The notes beneath the pieces are model-generated. The model made no database searches. It saw nothing but the letters and a program-made list of their open reading frames with translations, and was not told where the DNA came from. This document shows, piece by piece, positions 10,503 to 20,223 of a stretch of 25,980 bases of DNA (its first letter is position 1; each line of letters starts with the position of its first letter). The DNA comes from a virus, in IMG/VR virus record IMGVR_UViG_3300044712_000025, positions 1 to 25,980 of that record; one strand, given 5' to 3'. Made by a program: the position numbers and the translations under genes.

Positions 10503-10889
10503 CTAGCTTAATTGTACTGTTAGGTTTGATGATGCAATCTTAAAGATGTCACCAGTTTCAATTGTTTTAGCAGCATCTAATACTGTATGGTAAAGAAGGT
10601 TACCACCACTTACAGCATCCAAGATACCAATCCAGCCTACTGTACCCCAGTTAGCAGTTGCTTGTGGGAAGGTTACGTCAGCATTAGAAGCTGATAGACC
10701 GTTAGAAGGTGCTGCAAAGGTTACTGATTGACGAGCGTAAGAGCCACCAGATACTTCTGTACCTGTGTTAGCATCTGTCGGATCGCTTGTGTATAAACCA
10801 ACATAAACAGTTGTAGGAGCTGTGTATGTAGTGCCACGAATTGTGCCGTTGATTAGAGCATTCTCAAGATAATTGCTTATTTCAGCCAT
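10503..10889 (-). CDS. Small phage tail protein
   Basis: 128 residues, start ATG with TAAGGAATTAAATC upstream. Motifs include TTVYVGLYTSDPTDANTGTE, GGSYARQSVTF, NADVTFPQATANWGTVGWIG and LLYHTVLDAAKTI. This is a widespread small phage tail or fibre-associated family; I recognise the pattern but know of no defined function. Its first codons overlap the end of the inserted HNH gene by 8 bases, so the HNH ORF stops just inside this gene. In an ancestor without the insertion the adaptor gene would probably have preceded it directly. Confidence 0.75.
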   Translation of the reverse strand: MAEISNYLENALINGTIRGTTYTAPTTVYVGLYTSDPTDANTGTEVSGGSYARQSVTFAAPSNGLSASNADVTFPQATANWGTVGWIGILDAVSGGNLLYHTVLDAAKTIETGDIFKIASSNLTVQLS

Positions 10890-11436
10890 GATTTAATTCC
10901 TTATAAAATTTATTTTGTTTACTTCTATTTTCATATTCTGTGATAATTTGTAAATTATTTGGAACATGAAGTCCACATACATTATTGTTCTTTAAAGGAA
11001 TAATATGATCAACTTCATATTTTATTCCAAACATTGTTAAATTCATCCAGTCACGCATAGCATAAATAGCATCAACACTATTTTTTACAGAATCAAACCA
11101 AGATGGTACTGCGTTTCTTTTTAATGCTCTTCTTTTTGCAGCATATGACATAATTTTTGATTTATTATTTTCATAACATTTTTTATAAAATTGTTTGTAT
11201 TTCTCTGGATTTTTTTTAATCCATTCGTTAGCTTTTTTAATTTTATGTTCACGTTTATCTGCATAAGTTGCATGATGGTATGCTTTAGCTTTTTCTATTT
11301 CACTATCTTTATTCTTTTGATACCATTCTTTTCTATGTTCTTTACAGCAATCTCTACACCAAGAATTAAGTCTAGTTTTTAATTTTCTAAACTCTAAATC
11401 TTCTTTTTTAACTTTGCATCTAACACAAAGTTTCAT
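10882..11436 (-). CDS. HNH endonuclease, freestanding (homing-type candidate)
   Basis: 184 residues, start ATG with AAGGAATAATC upstream. The N-terminal zinc-binding part has C4-x2-C7 and C27-x2-C30. A very basic Lys-rich helical middle follows (about 30-110). The C-terminal HNH core has VDHIIPLKNN (D143, H144), LHVPNNLQ (H157, N160, N161) and ENRSKQNKF (N170, N175, K176). The gene is visibly more AT-rich than its neighbours and sits between two structural genes, as freestanding phage homing endonucleases often do. The nuclease assignment is strong; homing behaviour is inference from position and composition. Confidence 0.88.
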   Translation of the reverse strand: MKLCVRCKVKKEDLEFRKLKTRLNSWCRDCCKEHRKEWYQKNKDSEIEKAKAYHHATYADKREHKIKKANEWIKKNPEKYKQFYKKCYENNKSKIMSYAAKRRALKRNAVPSWFDSVKNSVDAIYAMRDWMNLTMFGIKYEVDHIIPLKNNNVCGLHVPNNLQIITEYENRSKQNKFYKELNHG

Positions 11437-12424: not shown

Positions 12425-13366
12425 TTAAGTCAAGTCAGCAATGATACCGTGTGCTGCTTCGTTGTTAACTTGCAATGTGTATTCCACAAGCAATTGAGTT
12501 TGCTCAGAGTCACCAACTTTAGCCAATTCGTTAGTTTGGAATGGGCGTAGGTATGAAACTGAAGCCATCTCTGTATCAACCAAGAAAGCGCAATCGTCGT
12601 TGTCTGTGTTAGGAATGAAGCGATCTGGAACGATTTGGATCACGCCAAAATCTGACACATAAACGTCTGCTGCACCGATGATTTGAGCTTGTTGTGAAGC
12701 TGGCACATCACGGAAGCGAGTAGCAACGCCTGAGAATGTTGAAGCCACAACCTTTTGAGCTGGAGTTACAAACAACATTGTAGGTGAGCCACCGTTTGTG
12801 AAGCATGATTGCATTGTGCTGTTCAATAATGTTGAAGTGAATGCACGATCTGTACCAGTTACACGAGCAGTTGTACCACCAGAACCAGCAGTACCAGTAC
12901 CGTTGTAGTTAGAGCTTAACCATGTTTGTAAGCCGCCTAATACGCGAGCAGTTGTTGAGCCGTTACCGTCAGCAGCAACTTGGTTTGACAAAAGAATCGC
13001 TTCCATGTCACGTTTCAATTCGCCTGATGCTTTAGCTAATTGGTATGCTTTTTCTGAACGACGACCAGCTTTGTTAACTGTGTCCAAAGTACCAGAAATT
13101 TTAACAGTTTTTTGGCTGATCTGAGTACGGTTACCCAAACGAACTGTTGGAGTTAATGTAGCTGATGATGCATCTGCACCCTCGATTGCCGCATTGCTTA
13201 CGTTAACAGCAGCCAAGCTGTCAGTTTGCCATTCGTGTAAACGTGCTGTGGCATTAGTTTTGCCAATAGAGTTCATGAATGGTGTTTCAGTTGGAGAGAT
13301 GTTGTAAATAACATCAATTAAGTCTTCACGTTGACCAATCGCTTGGTAGGTCTGATATGTAGCCAT
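12425..13366 (-). CDS. Major capsid protein (SU10-type, HK97 fold expected)
   Basis: 313 residues, start ATG with AAAGGAATAATC upstream. Motifs are AIGQREDLIDVIYNISPTET and FMNSIGKTNATARLHEWQTD, then RTQISQKTVKISGTLDTVNK, a DMEAILLSNQ helix, TMLFVTPAQKVV and ASVSYLRPFQTNELAKVG. This is the pattern of the SU10 major capsid family (DUF5309-like), which is expected to have the HK97 fold. It follows the scaffold gene directly and is followed by a terminator-like hairpin, which suits a protein needed in hundreds of copies. No protease gene or cleavage site is evident. Confidence 0.88.
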   Translation of the reverse strand: MATYQTYQAIGQREDLIDVIYNISPTETPFMNSIGKTNATARLHEWQTDSLAAVNVSNAAIEGADASSATLTPTVRLGNRTQISQKTVKISGTLDTVNKAGRRSEKAYQLAKASGELKRDMEAILLSNQVAADGNGSTTARVLGGLQTWLSSNYNGTGTAGSGGTTARVTGTDRAFTSTLLNSTMQSCFTNGGSPTMLFVTPAQKVVASTFSGVATRFRDVPASQQAQIIGAADVYVSDFGVIQIVPDRFIPNTDNDDCAFLVDTEMASVSYLRPFQTNELAKVGDSEQTQLLVEYTLQVNNEAAHGIIADLT

Positions 13367-13376
13367 GATTATTCCT

Positions 13377-14360
13377 TTATCCTAATAATTGTTCCCAGAT
13401 TCTGGCAGCGTCTTTAACTTTGCCAGTAGCTCTGAGCTGTTGTTTGTTCCGCTTCATCTGATCTGTATTGGTAGATTTAACACCGTTACCAGATTTTAGC
13501 GTTCTTGGTGCTTCACTAACACGCTTTGTTACTTGCGGCTTAGCTTGCTGTAATTTGTCGTATTGCATCGCCTTATACAATGTCAAAACGTGACGAGAGT
13601 CGACGACTTCAGCTAGCTCTTCATCAGAAAAACCTACTGTCTTAGCGAACCTACGCATATCACCGCGTAATTTTTCACCTTTTTCTGGATCTGCATACTC
13701 AGGTAGTGCTTTAGCTAAGACATCTGCCTGTTGAGCTACAAACTGCTGTTTCTGCATAACCTGTTCCGCTTGTTGCTCTTTAGCAATTCGGTCACGTTCT
13801 GCCATTACCAGACTCATCTGTTTCTCTTGTTGTTGCATTTCTGCAACTCTTACTGCATATCCGACAGGATCGTTTTCTTTCAGAGTCTCTAAGTCCTCTG
13901 GTTGATTTTGTGCAGACAGCACCTGCGCCAAAACCTGCAACCTCTCAGCATAGGCATCTCTCATCTGCCTTGCCTCTAGCACAGCGTGAGCTTCTTGTTC
14001 TAAGATCTTACGTTGCTCTGCTAATTGTTGCGTCTTTTTGGTGTAGTCAACACCTTGTTGAGCATAGTTGATTAATTCTTCTTCAGATAGTTCTAACTCT
14101 TCGCCATTAACTTTGATCTTAGCCAACTTCGGCTCGTCTTGTTCTGGTTCTTCGTCAGAGTCTTCGTATGAATCATCTTCACTATAATCGTCAAGATCTT
14201 CTTCACCCTGTAGTTCTACTTCATCTTCTGGCGCTGCATCTGCTTGCCCTTGTTCGGGTGCTTCGTCATCACCTAGTAAGTTAAAGAAAGAACTTGCTGC
14301 CTCATTAATAGTGCCTAACGGCTGTTGATTTTCACTCCCAGAAGGGTTGGTGGTTTCCAT
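13377..14360 (-). CDS. Capsid scaffolding protein
   Basis: 327 residues, start ATG with AAGGAAATAAATCG upstream. The first 80 residues are strongly acidic (EDEVELQGEEDLDDYSEDD). IKVNGEELELSEEELINYAQ follows at about 82-101, then QGVDYTKKTQQLAEQRK, a motif I recognise from podovirus scaffolds. A long Gln/Glu/Ala coiled-coil region spans roughly 105-205, and the C-terminus is basic (KSGNGVKSTNTDQMKRNKQ). An acidic helical body with a basic tail directly before the capsid gene is classic for scaffolds, whose basic C-terminus contacts the coat protein. No protease motif is visible. Confidence 0.82.
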   Translation of the reverse strand: METTNPSGSENQQPLGTINEAASSFFNLLGDDEAPEQGQADAAPEDEVELQGEEDLDDYSEDDSYEDSDEEPEQDEPKLAKIKVNGEELELSEEELINYAQQGVDYTKKTQQLAEQRKILEQEAHAVLEARQMRDAYAERLQVLAQVLSAQNQPEDLETLKENDPVGYAVRVAEMQQQEKQMSLVMAERDRIAKEQQAEQVMQKQQFVAQQADVLAKALPEYADPEKGEKLRGDMRRFAKTVGFSDEELAEVVDSRHVLTLYKAMQYDKLQQAKPQVTKRVSEAPRTLKSGNGVKSTNTDQMKRNKQQLRATGKVKDAARIWEQLLG

Positions 14361-14978: not shown

Positions 14979-17069
14979 CTATTCTTCTGTATTTATATCA
15001 TTTTTTGCTATTTGCTGCAATGAAGTTAATGAATTCATTACAGAATCAAGCTGCATAGAGTCGTTAGATTGTTGTGCCTTAGCTGCATCAATCTGTAACT
15101 TCATCTGTTTGATAGCAATCTCGGCATTGTCTTTATAAGATTTTTGCTCTAGCTCTAATTGTTTACGAGCATTCTCAAGCTGCATCTTCTCGCGCTCTAA
15201 CTCATTCTTAGCGTTGTCAGTCTGTGCTTTAAGTTCTGCCTTAGCTCTCTCGATGTCAGCAAGCATCTGTGCCGCCTGTGCTGATGGATCTTGTTGAGGC
15301 TGTGACGCTTGTTGCATTACTTGCATCTCTAGCTCTGGCGTAATTGTGTTCAAGAATGCTGTTGTATCCTTGAATCCAGCCATCTCTACCATGCGAGACA
15401 ATGTTTTTTGGTACTGACTTAGGCTTACTAATGGATTGTTCACGCCATATTGACCGATGATCTGTTCTTGTTTAGCCAAGATCATCTGTAGTGTAGCAAT
15501 TTGCTCTTGACGGTTACCGTTACCCAAGCCTACGTTAATTGTTACGTTATATTGGTCTGACCACTCACGCGGATCAAAGTTAACCCACTCACCACGCAAG
15601 CGAACTGTCTGTTCACGGTCTTGGTACTTGCATAGTAGGTGTAGAATGCCCTTAAACAATGACTTAACGCCAGTCTCAGCAAAGATACGAGCGATTAGTT
15701 CTAGCTTGCCTGTAGATTGCTGTGTCATTGCTGCAACTGCAGTCGCTGTAGTGTTTTGTAGGATAGATGGATCTAAACCTTGCTGCATATCGCTAACGCC
15801 AGTGCGTTTAGCCTGTACGCCATCCAAGTATTCAAACATTGGGAAGGTTTGTGCTGCAGTGTTTTGTACGACTAGCTGTTGTACAGCGTTTACGTTTTTA
15901 GCACGAATCACACCACCAGCAGTAGACGTCAATAAATCGTCATAGTTCACTTGACCTTCAACTGCAACAACGCGAGCATTGTTTGTGAGGTAAAGGTTAT
16001 CGAAAAGTTGACGGGTTAGTGTCGTTTTCTCAAGCTGGATGTCCATTGTACGATCAGCAAGTGACTGACCAAAGAATTTGTGTGGGATAGGGATCGGGCA
16101 TAGGCTGTGGAACGGTACATAGTCGCACTCTTCTTGATCCAAGATGAACTCGCCACCCATTACGATGCGATGTAACGAATTAAAGCCTTCACCATTGAAG
16201 TCTGACTTGATGTAGCACTCGAAAATCTCAACTTCCTGCATAGATGGATCATCTACAGGGATGTACTCTGGGATCTCGCCGTTAGAGTAACGTGCTAAAC
16301 GCTCAGGCGCGTATGTTAAACGATCATATGCTGGGATTTGCTCAACAAGTTTGCGATCATAACCCATAGCAACTAGGTCTCCACGCGCTATAAAGCGTCT
16401 ATGAGCGCAGAACTGTGCGTCGGCAATGCTAGTGGCTCGCTTGTCGATAATAAACTCTTCTGGCGGAACTGTTTCAACGATAATTCGGCTGTAATCTTCA
16501 GTTCTTTTGATCGTTACATTGTAAGTGTTGGCAATTGTGCCGTCATTTAGTGTAATTTGGTTGACTTCTTGCTTGACAATCTCCCATTCACCGTCTGCGA
16601 GCATCATTGTTAGCTCGTCTTCTGTCAAATCTTTGTATGATTCGCGTGTTGTGTCTTTATTTGACTGCCAGTAGGCTTTAACAATGCCCACTTTTTGCAT
16701 TAATGCGTCTTTAAACCAGTTGTGTAGGATCAAGAAGCCGTCATTTTGCTTATAGAACACCCAGTTTGCTAGTTCACTAGCCTGTTTTGCGAACTTTTCG
16801 TCACCATCTTTAACTGGCTCGAACTGTACAGCGTCTTCGTTGCTTGTAAATACGCGAATAAGCTGAGGCAATGCGCCGTCAATGGCTTCTGCCACCTCAC
16901 CAGTGACAATCTGTGATCTACCTTCGATCTCGTTGCCGTATGGATTACGCAAATACGCATTTAATGCGTCTGCCCTAGCCTCAACTGTCTCTGTCTCAAG
17001 ATAACCAATAGCGTTATCAATCTCCATACGCAGTAGGACTTTAATTTCTTCTTCGCTCATTCTTGCCAT
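14979..17069 (-). CDS. Portal protein
   Basis: I place the start at the ATG at 17067-17069 (MARMSEEE..., 696 residues) because it forms a TAATG junction with the terminase stop; the longer frame to 17081 would need a GTG. Motifs include YLRNPYGNEIEGRSQIVTGE and ALPQLIRVFTSNEDAVQFEP, typical of large podovirus portals of the P22/SU10 kind, and HKFFGQSLADRTMDIQLEKT in the core. Residues about 585-680 are Gln/Ala/Glu/Lys-rich coiled coil, as in the C-terminal barrel of P22-like portals. It forms the ring through which DNA is packaged and ejected. Terminase upstream and scaffold and capsid downstream agree. Confidence 0.9.
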   Translation of the reverse strand: MARMSEEEIKVLLRMEIDNAIGYLETETVEARADALNAYLRNPYGNEIEGRSQIVTGEVAEAIDGALPQLIRVFTSNEDAVQFEPVKDGDEKFAKQASELANWVFYKQNDGFLILHNWFKDALMQKVGIVKAYWQSNKDTTRESYKDLTEDELTMMLADGEWEIVKQEVNQITLNDGTIANTYNVTIKRTEDYSRIIVETVPPEEFIIDKRATSIADAQFCAHRRFIARGDLVAMGYDRKLVEQIPAYDRLTYAPERLARYSNGEIPEYIPVDDPSMQEVEIFECYIKSDFNGEGFNSLHRIVMGGEFILDQEECDYVPFHSLCPIPIPHKFFGQSLADRTMDIQLEKTTLTRQLFDNLYLTNNARVVAVEGQVNYDDLLTSTAGGVIRAKNVNAVQQLVVQNTAAQTFPMFEYLDGVQAKRTGVSDMQQGLDPSILQNTTATAVAAMTQQSTGKLELIARIFAETGVKSLFKGILHLLCKYQDREQTVRLRGEWVNFDPREWSDQYNVTINVGLGNGNRQEQIATLQMILAKQEQIIGQYGVNNPLVSLSQYQKTLSRMVEMAGFKDTTAFLNTITPELEMQVMQQASQPQQDPSAQAAQMLADIERAKAELKAQTDNAKNELEREKMQLENARKQLELEQKSYKDNAEIAIKQMKLQIDAAKAQQSNDSMQLDSVMNSLTSLQQIAKNDINTEE

Positions 17070-18364
17070 TATATGATCCACTTAGTGTTAATGTTTAAGG
17101 GTTTGCTCCAAGAGTGGTCTGTCTCCACCAATCCTACAGCAAGGTATCTCATTGAGTCTGCTGCGTGTGAACACCAATCATGTAGCGGTCTGTCATAAAA
17201 TACGTTACGCTTCTCGTCGTACTCTCTGCGGTAGTTACGCAATGCAGAAAGCCCTTGTTTAGTTCTCTCTTGATCAAACCAGCATCTTGGTAGCAGTTGT
17301 CTTACCGCCTGAATACCGTCTGCAACTGATAGTCTAGGTGCAACTGTAATCTCTAGCCCTGCCTCAATCAACATCTCTTTACGAGACTTGCCAGATCCTA
17401 GCTCTCGAACTTCCACGTCATGCGGAAGGATTTGTTCTGCGCCTGAATATCCACGTTCGCGCAGCCAGCTAACATAATAGTCCAGCCCAACGCCATGATT
17501 CTCACAAAAGTCAATTAGTCGTACCTCTTTACCTACTAGCTGGGCAACCCAGATTGCAGTAGAGTCGCTAATACCCAAATCCCAAGCGCATACAGTACGG
17601 GAGAGTGTTTCGTTAGGAATCTTTGTAATTCTTTCTTGCTCTTCAGCTTCATTGATCAGCCCACCATAGAAAGCACCTTCTACTGGCGCGTCAAAGCTAC
17701 ATTCATACTCTTGGCGATACTTGTCTTCGCCCATCTCTTGTTTGGCTGCAGCAAGCTCACCAGCGTCTAAGATCTTAGTCTCACTAGCCTTGAACTCTAA
17801 GAACTGCCAGCCGTTACCTTCTTTACCACGCTCTTTAAAGTCTGCAAAGTGATTGTTACCCTTTGGCGTACCAATGAATAAACACCAACCCTTGCGATCA
17901 GTTAGTGCAGGTCTAATAATATCTGTCCAGATTTTAGGGTTCTGGTCACCAATCTCATCTAGTACCACGCCATCAAAGTATTGACCACGCAATGACTCAG
18001 CATTCTCAGATCCATACAGGCTGATACGTCTACCCAAGAAGTCTACTCGTAGCTCGGCAATGTTTACCTTTGCGCCAAGTGGTCTCGTGTACTCAACCAA
18101 GTAATCCCACGCAATACGTTTAGCCTGTGCATAAGTTGGTGCGATATAACCGTATCTTGGGTTAGGCATGTCGTTATTCAATGCCCTGTCAACAAGCTCC
18201 ATGATTGCTGATACAGTTTTACCCATACGACGATGGGCAACAACTACAACGAACCTTGACTCCCTCATTGCTGCATGTATTCTGCTTTGAGGTTCGCGAG
18301 GTCTGTATCCTAAGTCAATCTCTTCCTGCTCTTCGTACTCTTCTACATCACTTAGGTCTGTCAT
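17069..18364 (-). CDS. terL: Terminase large subunit (packaging ATPase and nuclease)
   Basis: I chose the ATG at 18362-18364 (431 residues) because CACAGGAATTGCTA precedes it; an in-frame ATG at 18409 would add 15 residues but has no clear ribosome site. Visible motifs are a Walker A-type loop AHRRMGKT at about 43-50, Walker B VVLDE at about 133-137, the coupling motif FIGTPKGNNHF at about 163, and a RNase H-like nuclease start AWDLGISDSTA at about 260 whose Asp should bind metal. HAADSMRYLA near the C-terminus carries the last nuclease Asp. It cuts and pumps DNA through the portal. It overlaps the small subunit gene by 17 bases. Confidence 0.93.
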   Translation of the reverse strand: MTDLSDVEEYEEQEEIDLGYRPREPQSRIHAAMRESRFVVVVAHRRMGKTVSAIMELVDRALNNDMPNPRYGYIAPTYAQAKRIAWDYLVEYTRPLGAKVNIAELRVDFLGRRISLYGSENAESLRGQYFDGVVLDEIGDQNPKIWTDIIRPALTDRKGWCLFIGTPKGNNHFADFKERGKEGNGWQFLEFKASETKILDAGELAAAKQEMGEDKYRQEYECSFDAPVEGAFYGGLINEAEEQERITKIPNETLSRTVCAWDLGISDSTAIWVAQLVGKEVRLIDFCENHGVGLDYYVSWLRERGYSGAEQILPHDVEVRELGSGKSRKEMLIEAGLEITVAPRLSVADGIQAVRQLLPRCWFDQERTKQGLSALRNYRREYDEKRNVFYDRPLHDWCSHAADSMRYLAVGLVETDHSWSKPLNINTKWII

Positions 18365-18596
18365 TAGCAATTCCTGTGATGACTTTGAGTGCGACTGGGT
18401 TATCGTCATTGCCAGTAAGCTCTACTGATTGTAGATCTGGTATAGTTTTCTTGAGTAGTAACTCAATAGCCCTTATGCGACTTGCTGACAATTCAATATC
18501 GCCCATCGCGTGGCTTTCTAATAGCCCAATGAGTACGGAGGCTTGAATCCTTGCTCGTACTTCATCTTGATGTTTTGTTCTTATTCTAGCTGCCAT
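18348..18596 (-). CDS. terS: Terminase small subunit (short podovirus type)
   Basis: 82 residues, start ATG with GGGAG eight bases upstream. RTKHQDEVRARIQASVLIGL and SASRIRAIELLLKKTIPDLQ form two amphipathic helical blocks. This is a short packaging protein family I recognise directly upstream of large terminases in many phages; it is expected to recognise DNA and regulate the large subunit. The gene overlaps terL. No separate HTH domain is visible, which fits the short type. The start codon region can fold into a hairpin (18600-18621) that covers the ribosome site. Confidence 0.8.
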   Translation of the reverse strand: MAARIRTKHQDEVRARIQASVLIGLLESHAMGDIELSASRIRAIELLLKKTIPDLQSVELTGNDDNPVALKVITGIANDRPK

Positions 18597-18628: not shown

Positions 18629-19105
18629 TTATTTATAAAGCCTACCGTAGTTTGCTGATGCTTTAGCAATCTCATCTTTTGTTAATTGTTTACCAGAGTT
18701 TCGTGCTTGCACTGCAGCCCTGACTCCAGCCATATTTTCTTGGTAATCTTTCCATGCATCTAATTCACTTTTAGGATTTGATGCCTTCATGTAATCCATT
18801 AGCTGCCATGCCTTAGCCATTTTGTCAGCATTCTCAACAGTCATGTCTGGAATAGTTCCAAACTGATAACCGCCACCATAGTTAATAGCCATATCTAATG
18901 GGCTTCTATTAATTCTTGTAGTGCCTAAGTCTTTATATGCTGACAATTGGTTTTTAAGTTGTTCTGGATAAGCTCCATGCTCTAAGTATGCTGACGGGTT
19001 ATTAAACAATAAAGATGCAGAACTTACAGCTCCAGATCCTAAAGTTTTTAGTTTGTCCAGCATTGACATCTGAGCAAACATATTCTCATCTAACAAACTT
19101 GGCAT
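18629..19105 (-). CDS. Unrecognised phage protein upstream of terminase
   Basis: 158 residues. I do not recognise a family. The first 45 residues are Leu/Ser/Ala-rich (MSMLDKLKTLGSGAVSSASL); the rest is helical with scattered charged residues and ends LTKDEIAKASANYGRLYK. It has no Cys and no obvious catalytic motif. It starts just after the tiny Lys-rich gene and is followed by terS, so it could be a minor virion or packaging protein. Coding is supported by length, open frame and tight spacing. An internal ATG at codon 9 is an alternative start. Confidence 0.6.
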   Translation of the reverse strand: MPSLLDENMFAQMSMLDKLKTLGSGAVSSASLLFNNPSAYLEHGAYPEQLKNQLSAYKDLGTTRINRSPLDMAINYGGGYQFGTIPDMTVENADKMAKAWQLMDYMKASNPKSELDAWKDYQENMAGVRAAVQARNSGKQLTKDEIAKASANYGRLYK

Positions 19106-19106
19106 G

Positions 19107-19367
19107 CTACCACTTAACCTTATTAGCCCAGTACGCTGCGCTTAGTTTACCTTTAGCAATGTTATCTGCATGACGAGCCTTGAATGAATCATTACGCTTG
19201 CTGCCGTCTGGACTACCTTTAACACCTTGCTGACCAAAGCGAATAGTCTTAATCGTGTCACCTTGTTTGGCAACAACGACATGAGACTTAGTTGGATGGC
19301 TAGGAGTGGCTTTAGGTTTGTTGTAACCTTCTAGCCCAAGTTTTTCTAATCGTGAATCTTTCTTCAT
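19107..19367 (-). CDS. Conserved small basic phage protein
   Basis: 86 residues. Its ATG overlaps the stop of the upstream tiny gene (ATGA). Landmarks are LGLEGYNKPKATPSHPTKSH, VVVAKQGDTIKTIRFGQQGV, SFKARHADNIAKGK and AAYWANKVKW. I recognise this family from many aquatic phages; function is unknown to me. It is strongly basic, with Lys, Arg and His, which suggests nucleic-acid contact or packaging inside the head. It is one of four consecutive tiny lysine-rich genes upstream of terminase. Confidence 0.75.
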   Translation of the reverse strand: MKKDSRLEKLGLEGYNKPKATPSHPTKSHVVVAKQGDTIKTIRFGQQGVKGSPDGSKRNDSFKARHADNIAKGKLSAAYWANKVKW

Positions 19368-19522
19368 TTCTTAGCCTTTTTCTTGGCTGTCTTTGCTGCA
19401 TCCTTAAAGTCTTTATCTGAAGGAGCTGCTTTACTGCCAACCTTATTCATCTTCTCGCCTGAGCCAGCTTCAATACGCTTCTTCTTGGCGTGGATGTTTG
19501 CATAGAGTCCTTGTTTAGCCAT
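19364..19522 (-). CDS. Tiny lysine-rich phage protein (52 residues)
   Basis: The protein starts MAKQGLYANIHAKKKRIEAG, continues SGEKMNKVGSKAAPSD and ends in a Lys/Ala tail (AAKTAKKKAKK). It starts at a TAATG junction and ends by overlapping the next ATG by four bases, which supports real coding despite its size. 'QGLYANIHAK...GSGEKM...GSK.AP' is a pattern I recognise from aquatic phages, where this small protein sits near packaging genes. Its function is not established to my knowledge; DNA or head association is a guess from the charge. Confidence 0.75.
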   Translation of the reverse strand: MAKQGLYANIHAKKKRIEAGSGEKMNKVGSKAAPSDKDFKDAAKTAKKKAKK

Positions 19523-19668
19523 TACTTTTTACCCTTTTGGAACTTGTCCATAGCTTCTGTAATTAACTTGTCTGTAGTCTGTGCAGGCTTAACAGGCTTT
19601 ACTGGATGGTATTTGCCACCAGACCATAACTTGTCCATCTTTTCTGCAATCTTATTGTAATCACGCAT
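19522..19668 (-). CDS. Tiny lysine-rich phage protein (48 residues)
   Basis: Begins MRDYNKIAEKMDKLWSGGKY, continues HPVKPVKPAQTTDKL and ends DKFQKGKK. Both ends are TAATG junctions, so it is locked into the operon. Its N-terminus resembles that of the preceding 54-residue protein (MRNMDKVAEKISKV), so the pair may be an old duplication. No known domain. It is basic and probably helical at both ends with a Pro/Lys linker. Confidence 0.65.
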   Translation of the reverse strand: MRDYNKIAEKMDKLWSGGKYHPVKPVKPAQTTDKLITEAMDKFQKGKK

Positions 19669-19832
19669 TATTTTTTGCCTTTCTTAGCAACGCCTGCCTC
19701 TGATAGAGCAATCGCAATTGCCTGTTTCTTATTCTTTACAACTTTACCGCCTTTGCCAGAGTGCAAGCTCTTGTCTTTGTATTCGCCCATTACCTTGCTG
19801 ATCTTTTCAGCTACTTTATCCATGTTACGCAT
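19668..19832 (-). CDS. Tiny lysine-rich phage protein with KQAIAIALSEAG motif
   Basis: The ATG at 19830-19832 (MRNMDKVAEK..., 54 residues) is chosen because GGAGAG lies six bases before it; the frame stays open to 19850 without a better start. The C-terminus has GGKVVKNKKQAIAIALSEAG followed by a Lys tail. The KQAIAIALS motif is shared with small proteins of phages and bacteria of unknown function (DUF6496-like, from memory). It overlaps the upstream gene by 8 bases. The strongly basic character fits the neighbouring tiny proteins. Confidence 0.7.
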   Translation of the reverse strand: MRNMDKVAEKISKVMGEYKDKSLHSGKGGKVVKNKKQAIAIALSEAGVAKKGKK

Positions 19833-20223
19833 AATCGCTCTCCATATCATCTTCTGGGGTTTCGTATTCTTTCTCTTCCCATACGCTGCATACGCGAGAG
19901 TTATGGCAGATAAAGTCTAGCTTATGACAATAGCCACGCTGTGCTTGACCGTCATATAGATCGTACTTGTTCAATGGAATCGCTTCCATCGCTTCTAACA
20001 TGCTTGGTGTGTTTTCGTAGTATTCGCAATTGCCGCAACGTCTGCGCTTTGCTTGATCTGGTGTGATGCGCCACATATCAGCCATCTTTTTCCAGTAGGC
20101 TGTGTTAGGCAATGATGGGTTTTCTGGTGCTAATGCATAGTTCTTGATTGCATTCTCTGTATTCTTTGCAATCTCTTTGGCAGATGGGATTGTGGTTTTA
20201 GTGTCTAGTAAGCCTTTAATCAT
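19825..20223 (-). CDS. Cys-rich conserved phage protein (probable metal-binding)
   Basis: 132 residues, start ATG with AAGG seven bases upstream. It contains five cysteines in a pattern I recognise from phage proteins: CGNC at 63-66 with EYYENTPSMLEAMEAIPLNK after it, then GYCHKLDFICHNSRVCSVWE with C99, C106 and C112. These suggest a zinc site or iron-sulfur-type cluster. The N-terminal half has TAYWKKMADMWRITPDQAKR. Function is unknown. It is the first confident gene of the virion module after the tRNA region and may be either structural or regulatory. Confidence 0.7.
   Translation of the reverse strand: MIKGLLDTKTTIPSAKEIAKNTENAIKNYALAPENPSLPNTAYWKKMADMWRITPDQAKRRRCGNCEYYENTPSMLEAMEAIPLNKYDLYDGQAQRGYCHKLDFICHNSRVCSVWEEKEYETPEDDMESDYA

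Follow-up and report, generated by a model that had tools for sequence, protein, structure and literature searches.

Four small basic genes upstream of a phage terminase region lie in an exchangeable slot and may serve head assembly

A virus record analyzed here over its whole length of 25,980 bases (the window) carries a run of four very small genes, g1 to g4, and raises the question of what task such short basic proteins could have beside the genes for DNA packaging. A preliminary description of the sequence had pictured four successive genes for proteins of 54, 48, 52 and 86 aa, placed before the terminase. The four genes are present and overlap by 1, 1 and 4 bases (Table 1). Their pI values of 10.2, 9.8, 10.2 and 10.3, respectively, bear out the basic character claimed for them, and the Lys-rich tails or Lys-Trp end were found as KKGKK in g1, KGKK in g2, KKKAKK in g3 and VKW in g4. 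The placement holds for the terminase region and fails for the large terminase subunit (TerL) itself, because g5 and a putative small subunit (TerS), for which neither Pfam nor PHROGs gave a confident family, separate g4 from TerL. On the minus strand, g4 is followed by g5, the putative TerS, TerL, an SU10-type portal protein, a scaffold and an SU10-type capsid protein.

Table 1. Small genes of the window and the neighboring terminase and head genes.
Feature	Length (aa)	Position	Strand	Basis or remark
g0, Cys-rich	132	19825-20223	minus	stop codon overlaps g1 start (ATGCGTAA); left end of cassette slot
g1, DUF6496 protein, Lys tail	54	19668-19832	minus	PF20106 E 2.9e-9; pN/pS 0-0.18 against 5 relatives
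g2, N-terminus common with g1, own tail	48	19522-19668	minus	shared motif; pN/pS 0.19-0.40
g3, GLYANIHAK...GSGEKM...FKxAAKTAKKK protein, two predicted helices	52	19364-19522	minus	phrog_16028 E 2.7e-23
g4, predicted beta-hairpin and helices	86	19107-19367	minus	phrog_7595 E 5.8e-34
g5	158	18629-19105	minus	present in 6 of 22 related loci
Putative small terminase subunit (TerS)	82	18348-18596	minus	position only; directly upstream of and overlapping TerL
Large terminase subunit (TerL)		17069-18409	minus	PF03237 2.3e-5; phrog_2 1.1e-37
SU10-type portal protein		14979-17081	minus	PF23899 1.1e-211
Head scaffolding protein		13377-14360	minus	phrog_3927 1.6e-46
SU10-type major capsid protein		12425-13366	minus	PF17236 4.2e-97; PDB 9ny2 1.8e-59

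All 20 pairwise comparisons of g1 to g4 with relatives gave pN/pS ratios between 0 and 0.40; the four are therefore real genes rather than chance frames, and all are under purifying selection. Three of them (g1, g3 and g4) match a described family. The g1 protein belongs to DUF6496, scoring 37.6 bits against a Pfam gathering cut-off of 24, and its window copy begins with a leader common to g2; tblastn found g1 matches in 5 of 50,697 phage records. The ORF list offers a 60-aa form of g1 from an upstream ATG; the start of the 54-aa form is the one common to relatives, and GGAGAG lies immediately 5' of it. Residues 1-49 of g3 align with positions 1-49 of the 50 in phrog_16028, with no marked difference, and residues 2-86 of g4 with positions 4-96 of the 96 in phrog_7595. 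Both are full-length matches, and PHROGs annotates both families as of unknown function. For g2, no significant match was obtained in Pfam, PHROGs, NCBIfam or PADLOC (best PHROG E 0.53). None of the four genes has a PADLOC match with E < 0.01 or an NCBIfam match, and a defence or toxin-antitoxin role is thus unsupported by these two collections; a JAB match to g1 is weak (E 0.016) and was judged to be chance. Neither a mention of DUF6496 nor virion proteomics or DNA-binding results attributable to the g1-g4 proteins were found in the literature covered, which excludes most subscription journals, and in the accessible part of the cobavirus paper the string 'proteom' occurs twice, both times in the reference list.

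The kinship that had been noticed between the N-termini of g1 (MRNMDKVAEK) and g2 (MRDYNKIAEK) is real. A scan of 12,522 ORFs from 141 loci found the motif in 33, each a g1, a g2 or a minigene of 30-31 aa, and in no g3, g4 or other ORF; the same leader is carried on three different tails, those of DUF6496, g2 and the minigene. In many loci, g0 ends in a stop codon that overlaps the start, ATGCGT[GA]A. Within one genome, the g1 and g2 leaders are 67-73% identical in DNA and agree at 6-8 of 11 residues. The first 33 bases of g2 in locus L021 are those of g1 in L029 and are followed by the g2 tail, and in L030 a g2 with the leader of the window's g2 lies directly behind g0, without g1. These arrangements fit recombination at the common 5' end of g1 and g2, which is a likely crossover point for gene exchange. 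Because a K..KVM.E pattern near the leader is native to DUF6496 in more distant relatives, the simplest origin of g2 would be the N-terminus of g1 on a new tail, and g2 looks like a lineage-specific chimera of this kind.

The distribution of the genes was assessed in loci with a related TerL, of which 22 of 57 had both ends of the interval, g0 and TerS (L057 was left out as part of the same contig as L012, and L059 had no TerS match). Genes g1 to g5 were present in 19, 14, 6, 8 and 6 of these 22 loci, respectively, with L010 and L011, identical in their gene pattern, perhaps being near-copies of each other. In all six loci with g3, g4 was present as well (Fisher p 0.0004); both were absent from 14. 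The complete set was found in only three, which rules out a fixed four-gene unit. The preliminary description had counted separate distribution against its own reading, and the distribution is in part separate, with g1, g3 and g4 each spread independently. The varied patterns of g1 to g5 identify the interval bounded by g0 and the TerS gene as a slot with exchangeable cassettes, swapped partly at the 5' end that g1 and g2 share. Other occupants include a 105-aa beta-type protein (L029:2207-2524) whose match to DUF7243 (E 6.8e-5) falls below the cut-off, a basic protein of 49 aa (L029:2688-2837) and, in two of the 22 loci, endonuclease genes (Endonuclease_7, L003:1181-1606; HNH_3, L019:3406-3897). 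Homing-type endonucleases could drive the exchange of cassettes. Since 14 of the 22 loci lack g3 and g4, the role of these genes is not essential, and the dispensability of g1 to g4 within the clade argues for an accessory task. At the left end of the slot, g0 has no Pfam family match; the gene at its place in ctYwJ313 and ct2t2046 is annotated as 'high potential iron-sulfur protein', an annotation without Pfam support in g0 itself.

Relatives of g4 are widespread, with g4-like matches in 49 of the 50,697 phage records (tblastn), at least 599 confirmed relatives from at least 600 IMG/VR stretches (80 loci kept), and, in the species-genome collection, a further 60 contigs, almost all with the title MAG, which are presumed to be phage contigs in bins. 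An AlphaFold2 model from an alignment of 48 sequences (alignment A1, in which the window copy is joined by 47 selected from 101 g4 loci) predicts a beta-hairpin with helices, the five models having pLDDT values of 83, 79, 61, 60 and 52, and the protein has a conserved core. Among 418 PDB chains compared by VIA-align, the model had no neighbor at Z >= 2. A Foldseek search of viral models with g4 returned close relatives, ORF125 of phage ICP1, phage proteins named ChaB or XkdF, and a 1393-aa protein. The ICP1 protein, annotated as 'capsid protease' in many ICP1 records among the matches listed, joins an XkdF/Peptidase_S78_2 protease (PF14550, 6.6e-10, residues 36-160) to a C-terminal g4 domain (phrog_7595, 5.8e-11, residues 184-261). 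The window's g4 matches positions 190-261 of phrog_9979, the ORF125 family, with E 6.5e-6; the PHROG values for the fused g4 domain are independent, and the HMMER E-values cover two sequences, one of the two profiles including the copy from GR11A. In contrast to ORF125, the g4 of the window is a standalone protein that lacks the XkdF protease part, and it has no Pfam match, Peptidase_S78_2 included, the protease domain being found only on the ICP1 fusion partner. Among the matches listed, the tail of the ICP1 protease shares 59% identity with the copy from GR11A, which is standalone; the g4 domain thus exists both free and fused. The gene order in ICP1 is TerL (128), 127, 126, 125, scaffold (124), decoration (123) and coat (122), the last three products being named as such in the accessible text of PMC10945586.

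A second kind of fusion was found in gp012 of Aphanizomenon phage CL131 (L230:8800-12981), a portal-MuF polyprotein of phrog_220 with the same length, 1393 aa, as the Foldseek match. It joins portal, g4, InPase-like and MuF segments, and its g4 domain (534-604) lies between Phage_portal_3 (6.6e-52) and Phage_Mu_F (4.5e-12), whereas the g4 of the window has none of these partners. Two further families gave weak signals. DUF5754, a giant-virus family, matched 19 of the 48 members of the g4 alignment at E values up to 10 (best 0.0014), and the GR11A copy scored 10.5 bits against a cut-off of 27.4. Weak single-sequence matches to DUF6321 (PF19846) were seen in 9 of the 48, and a profile-profile comparison (hhalign P 0.04 over 13 columns) led us to reject g4 as a relative of that family.

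For g3, the AlphaFold2 model (pLDDT 80) has helices at residues 6-18 and 36-48. Relatives were found by tblastn in 82 of the 50,697 phage records, among the matches listed in pelagiphages and cyanopodoviruses, and at least 600 IMG/VR stretches gave at least 577 confirmed relatives (80 loci kept). Like g4, g3 also occurs inside larger proteins, several of them phage proteins recovered in a fold search: it is fused with DUF6496 in ctYwJ313 and with DUF6321 in L162, L184 and L188. Among 80 DUF6321 loci (L291 being the same contig as L184), the g3 match lay in the same ORF in 10 and a g1-type match in 4. A 673-aa Lys/Gly-rich patchwork protein (L209:1633-3654) has an embedded g3 domain together with repeated KGG and Cys motifs.

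The neighborhoods of these genes in other phages point to the head module. In 8 of 12 annotated neighborhoods of g3 or g4 hits (HMO-2011, HTVC168P, ctYwJ313, P-SCSP1u, S-CBS2, CRP-810, KBS-S-2A and ct2t2046), a gene named as portal, scaffold, capsid, terminase, minor head or structural lies within 3 kb; the names of the neighbors in CRP-5, GR11A, SIO1 and D274 are not telling. A g3/g4-type gene lies between scaffold and capsid in HTVC168P, and the order in ctYwJ313 (g0-type gene, g4, g3 fused with DUF6496, structural protein, TerS, TerL) is close to that of the window. The phrog_2 TerL was detected in 20 of 50 g4 records, one of which (L057) is from the window's own clade, and g4 lies within 3.2 kb of it in 13 of the 20, where 5.3 would be expected by chance (p 0.0001). 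The genes also lie near one another, as judged by rate ratios inside versus outside 600 bp: from g4, the ratio was 12.7 to g3 (20 of 77 loci) and 5.8 to g1 (16 of 77), and from g3, 22.6 to g4 (7 of 80) and 110 to g1 (34 of 80), in sets selected for their resemblance to the genes of the window, with some loci mutually related and L057 to L059 excluded from the g4 set. Genes g1, g3 and g4 cluster across unrelated phages, beside head or terminase genes.

A link to the head or to packaging, the latter entertained in the preliminary description, is thus favored by gene neighborhoods elsewhere and by the g4 fusions to a capsid protease and a portal-MuF polyprotein. Since the g4 domain is built into head-making proteins of other phages, g1 to g4 probably help to make or fill the head. 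We lean towards reading them as late accessory genes of the head module, acting in the procapsid or in packaging, with g4 as a free-standing head-assembly domain. By association, the link to head assembly is strongly suggested for g4 and moderately for g3; for g1 it is weak, and for g2 nothing apart from position hints at it. Against the head reading weigh the 14 loci that do without g3 and g4, the P-SCSP1u cryo-EM paper described below, and the uneven quality of the five g4 models, with no PDB neighbor among the chains compared. The g4 protein would be a detached form of the small domain carried elsewhere inside the capsid protease or the polyprotein; its most likely docking site within the procapsid would be the portal, the scaffold or their vicinity. 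The short basic proteins g1 and g3, which travel together and are sometimes fused, would most likely enter the procapsid with g4 or beside it, where their Lys-rich tails could neutralize incoming DNA. We infer a procapsid location, partner binding, DNA contact and presence in the virion for g1 to g4.

Much of the same evidence could be read in other ways. Protamine-like condensers, which would form a coat on phage DNA, whether packaged or replicating, and be ejected with it, might be expected from the net charges of g1 to g4 (+10, +6, +11 and +12; ranking 2nd, 5th, 1st and 4th per residue among 48 hand-listed window genes) and from the terminase and portal neighborhoods. Charge by itself is weak evidence, however, and the predicted fold and conserved core of g4, together with its domain in the protease and the portal polyprotein, suggest docking; 14 of 22 relatives, moreover, do without g3 and g4, and we consider condensation unlikely. 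The high turnover of the slot, its endonuclease genes in L003 and L019, and the fact that no common function of g1 to g4 is known would suit moron-like passengers that act in host takeover or counter-defence and happen to lie in a late slot that homing endonucleases visit. Against such passengers stand the lack of PADLOC and NCBIfam matches reported above, the head-module placement kept in unrelated phages and the fusion of g4 to head proteins, which make them decidedly unlikely.

The leader of g1 and g2 could, by analogy with the capsid targeting sequence of T4, be an encapsidation signal with the tails as cargo. T4 internal proteins enter proheads via an N-terminal sequence of about 10 residues, according to the accessible text of PMC7697877, and one leader on three tails, agreeing in residues while its DNA has diverged within a genome, is what such a signal might look like. 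The leader is nevertheless missing from g3, g4 and every other ORF of the 141 loci, common descent accounts for it given the K..KVM.E pattern native to DUF6496, and no protease was found with Pfam and PHROGs among the head-region proteins scanned, a part of the window's proteins; we regard a targeting signal as very improbable. Small late genes adjoining capsid genes may also encode decoration or cement proteins on the exterior of the shell. Phage P-SCSP1u encodes a g3 homologue, yet the accessible text of its cryo-EM paper describes a shell solely of major capsid protein (MCP), with no decoration (cement) protein, and names no component corresponding to that homologue, which also matches no PDB chain although the P-SCSP1u MCP is in the PDB; a cement role is therefore unlikely for g3. 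No PDB chain matched the g1 or g3 profile and none credibly matched that of g4 (one chance-level match, E 0.49), and cement proteins appear highly improbable for the group.

Among known systems, a partial parallel is offered by the T4 internal proteins IPI-III, which are likewise small and of which several have a common short N-terminus; the leader of the window, in contrast, is limited to g1, g2 and the minigene. A bolder extension, which we rate as quite improbable, is that tiny encapsidated proteins form a kit common to aquatic phages, in which g4 at the portal or scaffold would recruit Lys-tailed g1, g3 and DUF6321 modules for pre-conditioning packaged DNA, with the g1/g2 leader as an encapsidation tag in this clade and the g4 fold perhaps present in giant viruses via DUF5754. 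With g3 or g4 present on hundreds of viral contigs and both families annotated as of unknown function, the protease and portal fusions of the g4 domain offer a concrete lead to a place of g4 in procapsids and to its contact with portal, scaffold or protease. As a likely crossover, the 5' end common to g1 and g2 points to a route by which genes this small may be swapped. Elsewhere in the window, a basic 184-aa protein (10882-11436) with Cys pairs and a DHIIPL stretch, HNH-like by eye and without a convincing Pfam match, is encoded within the run of structural genes.
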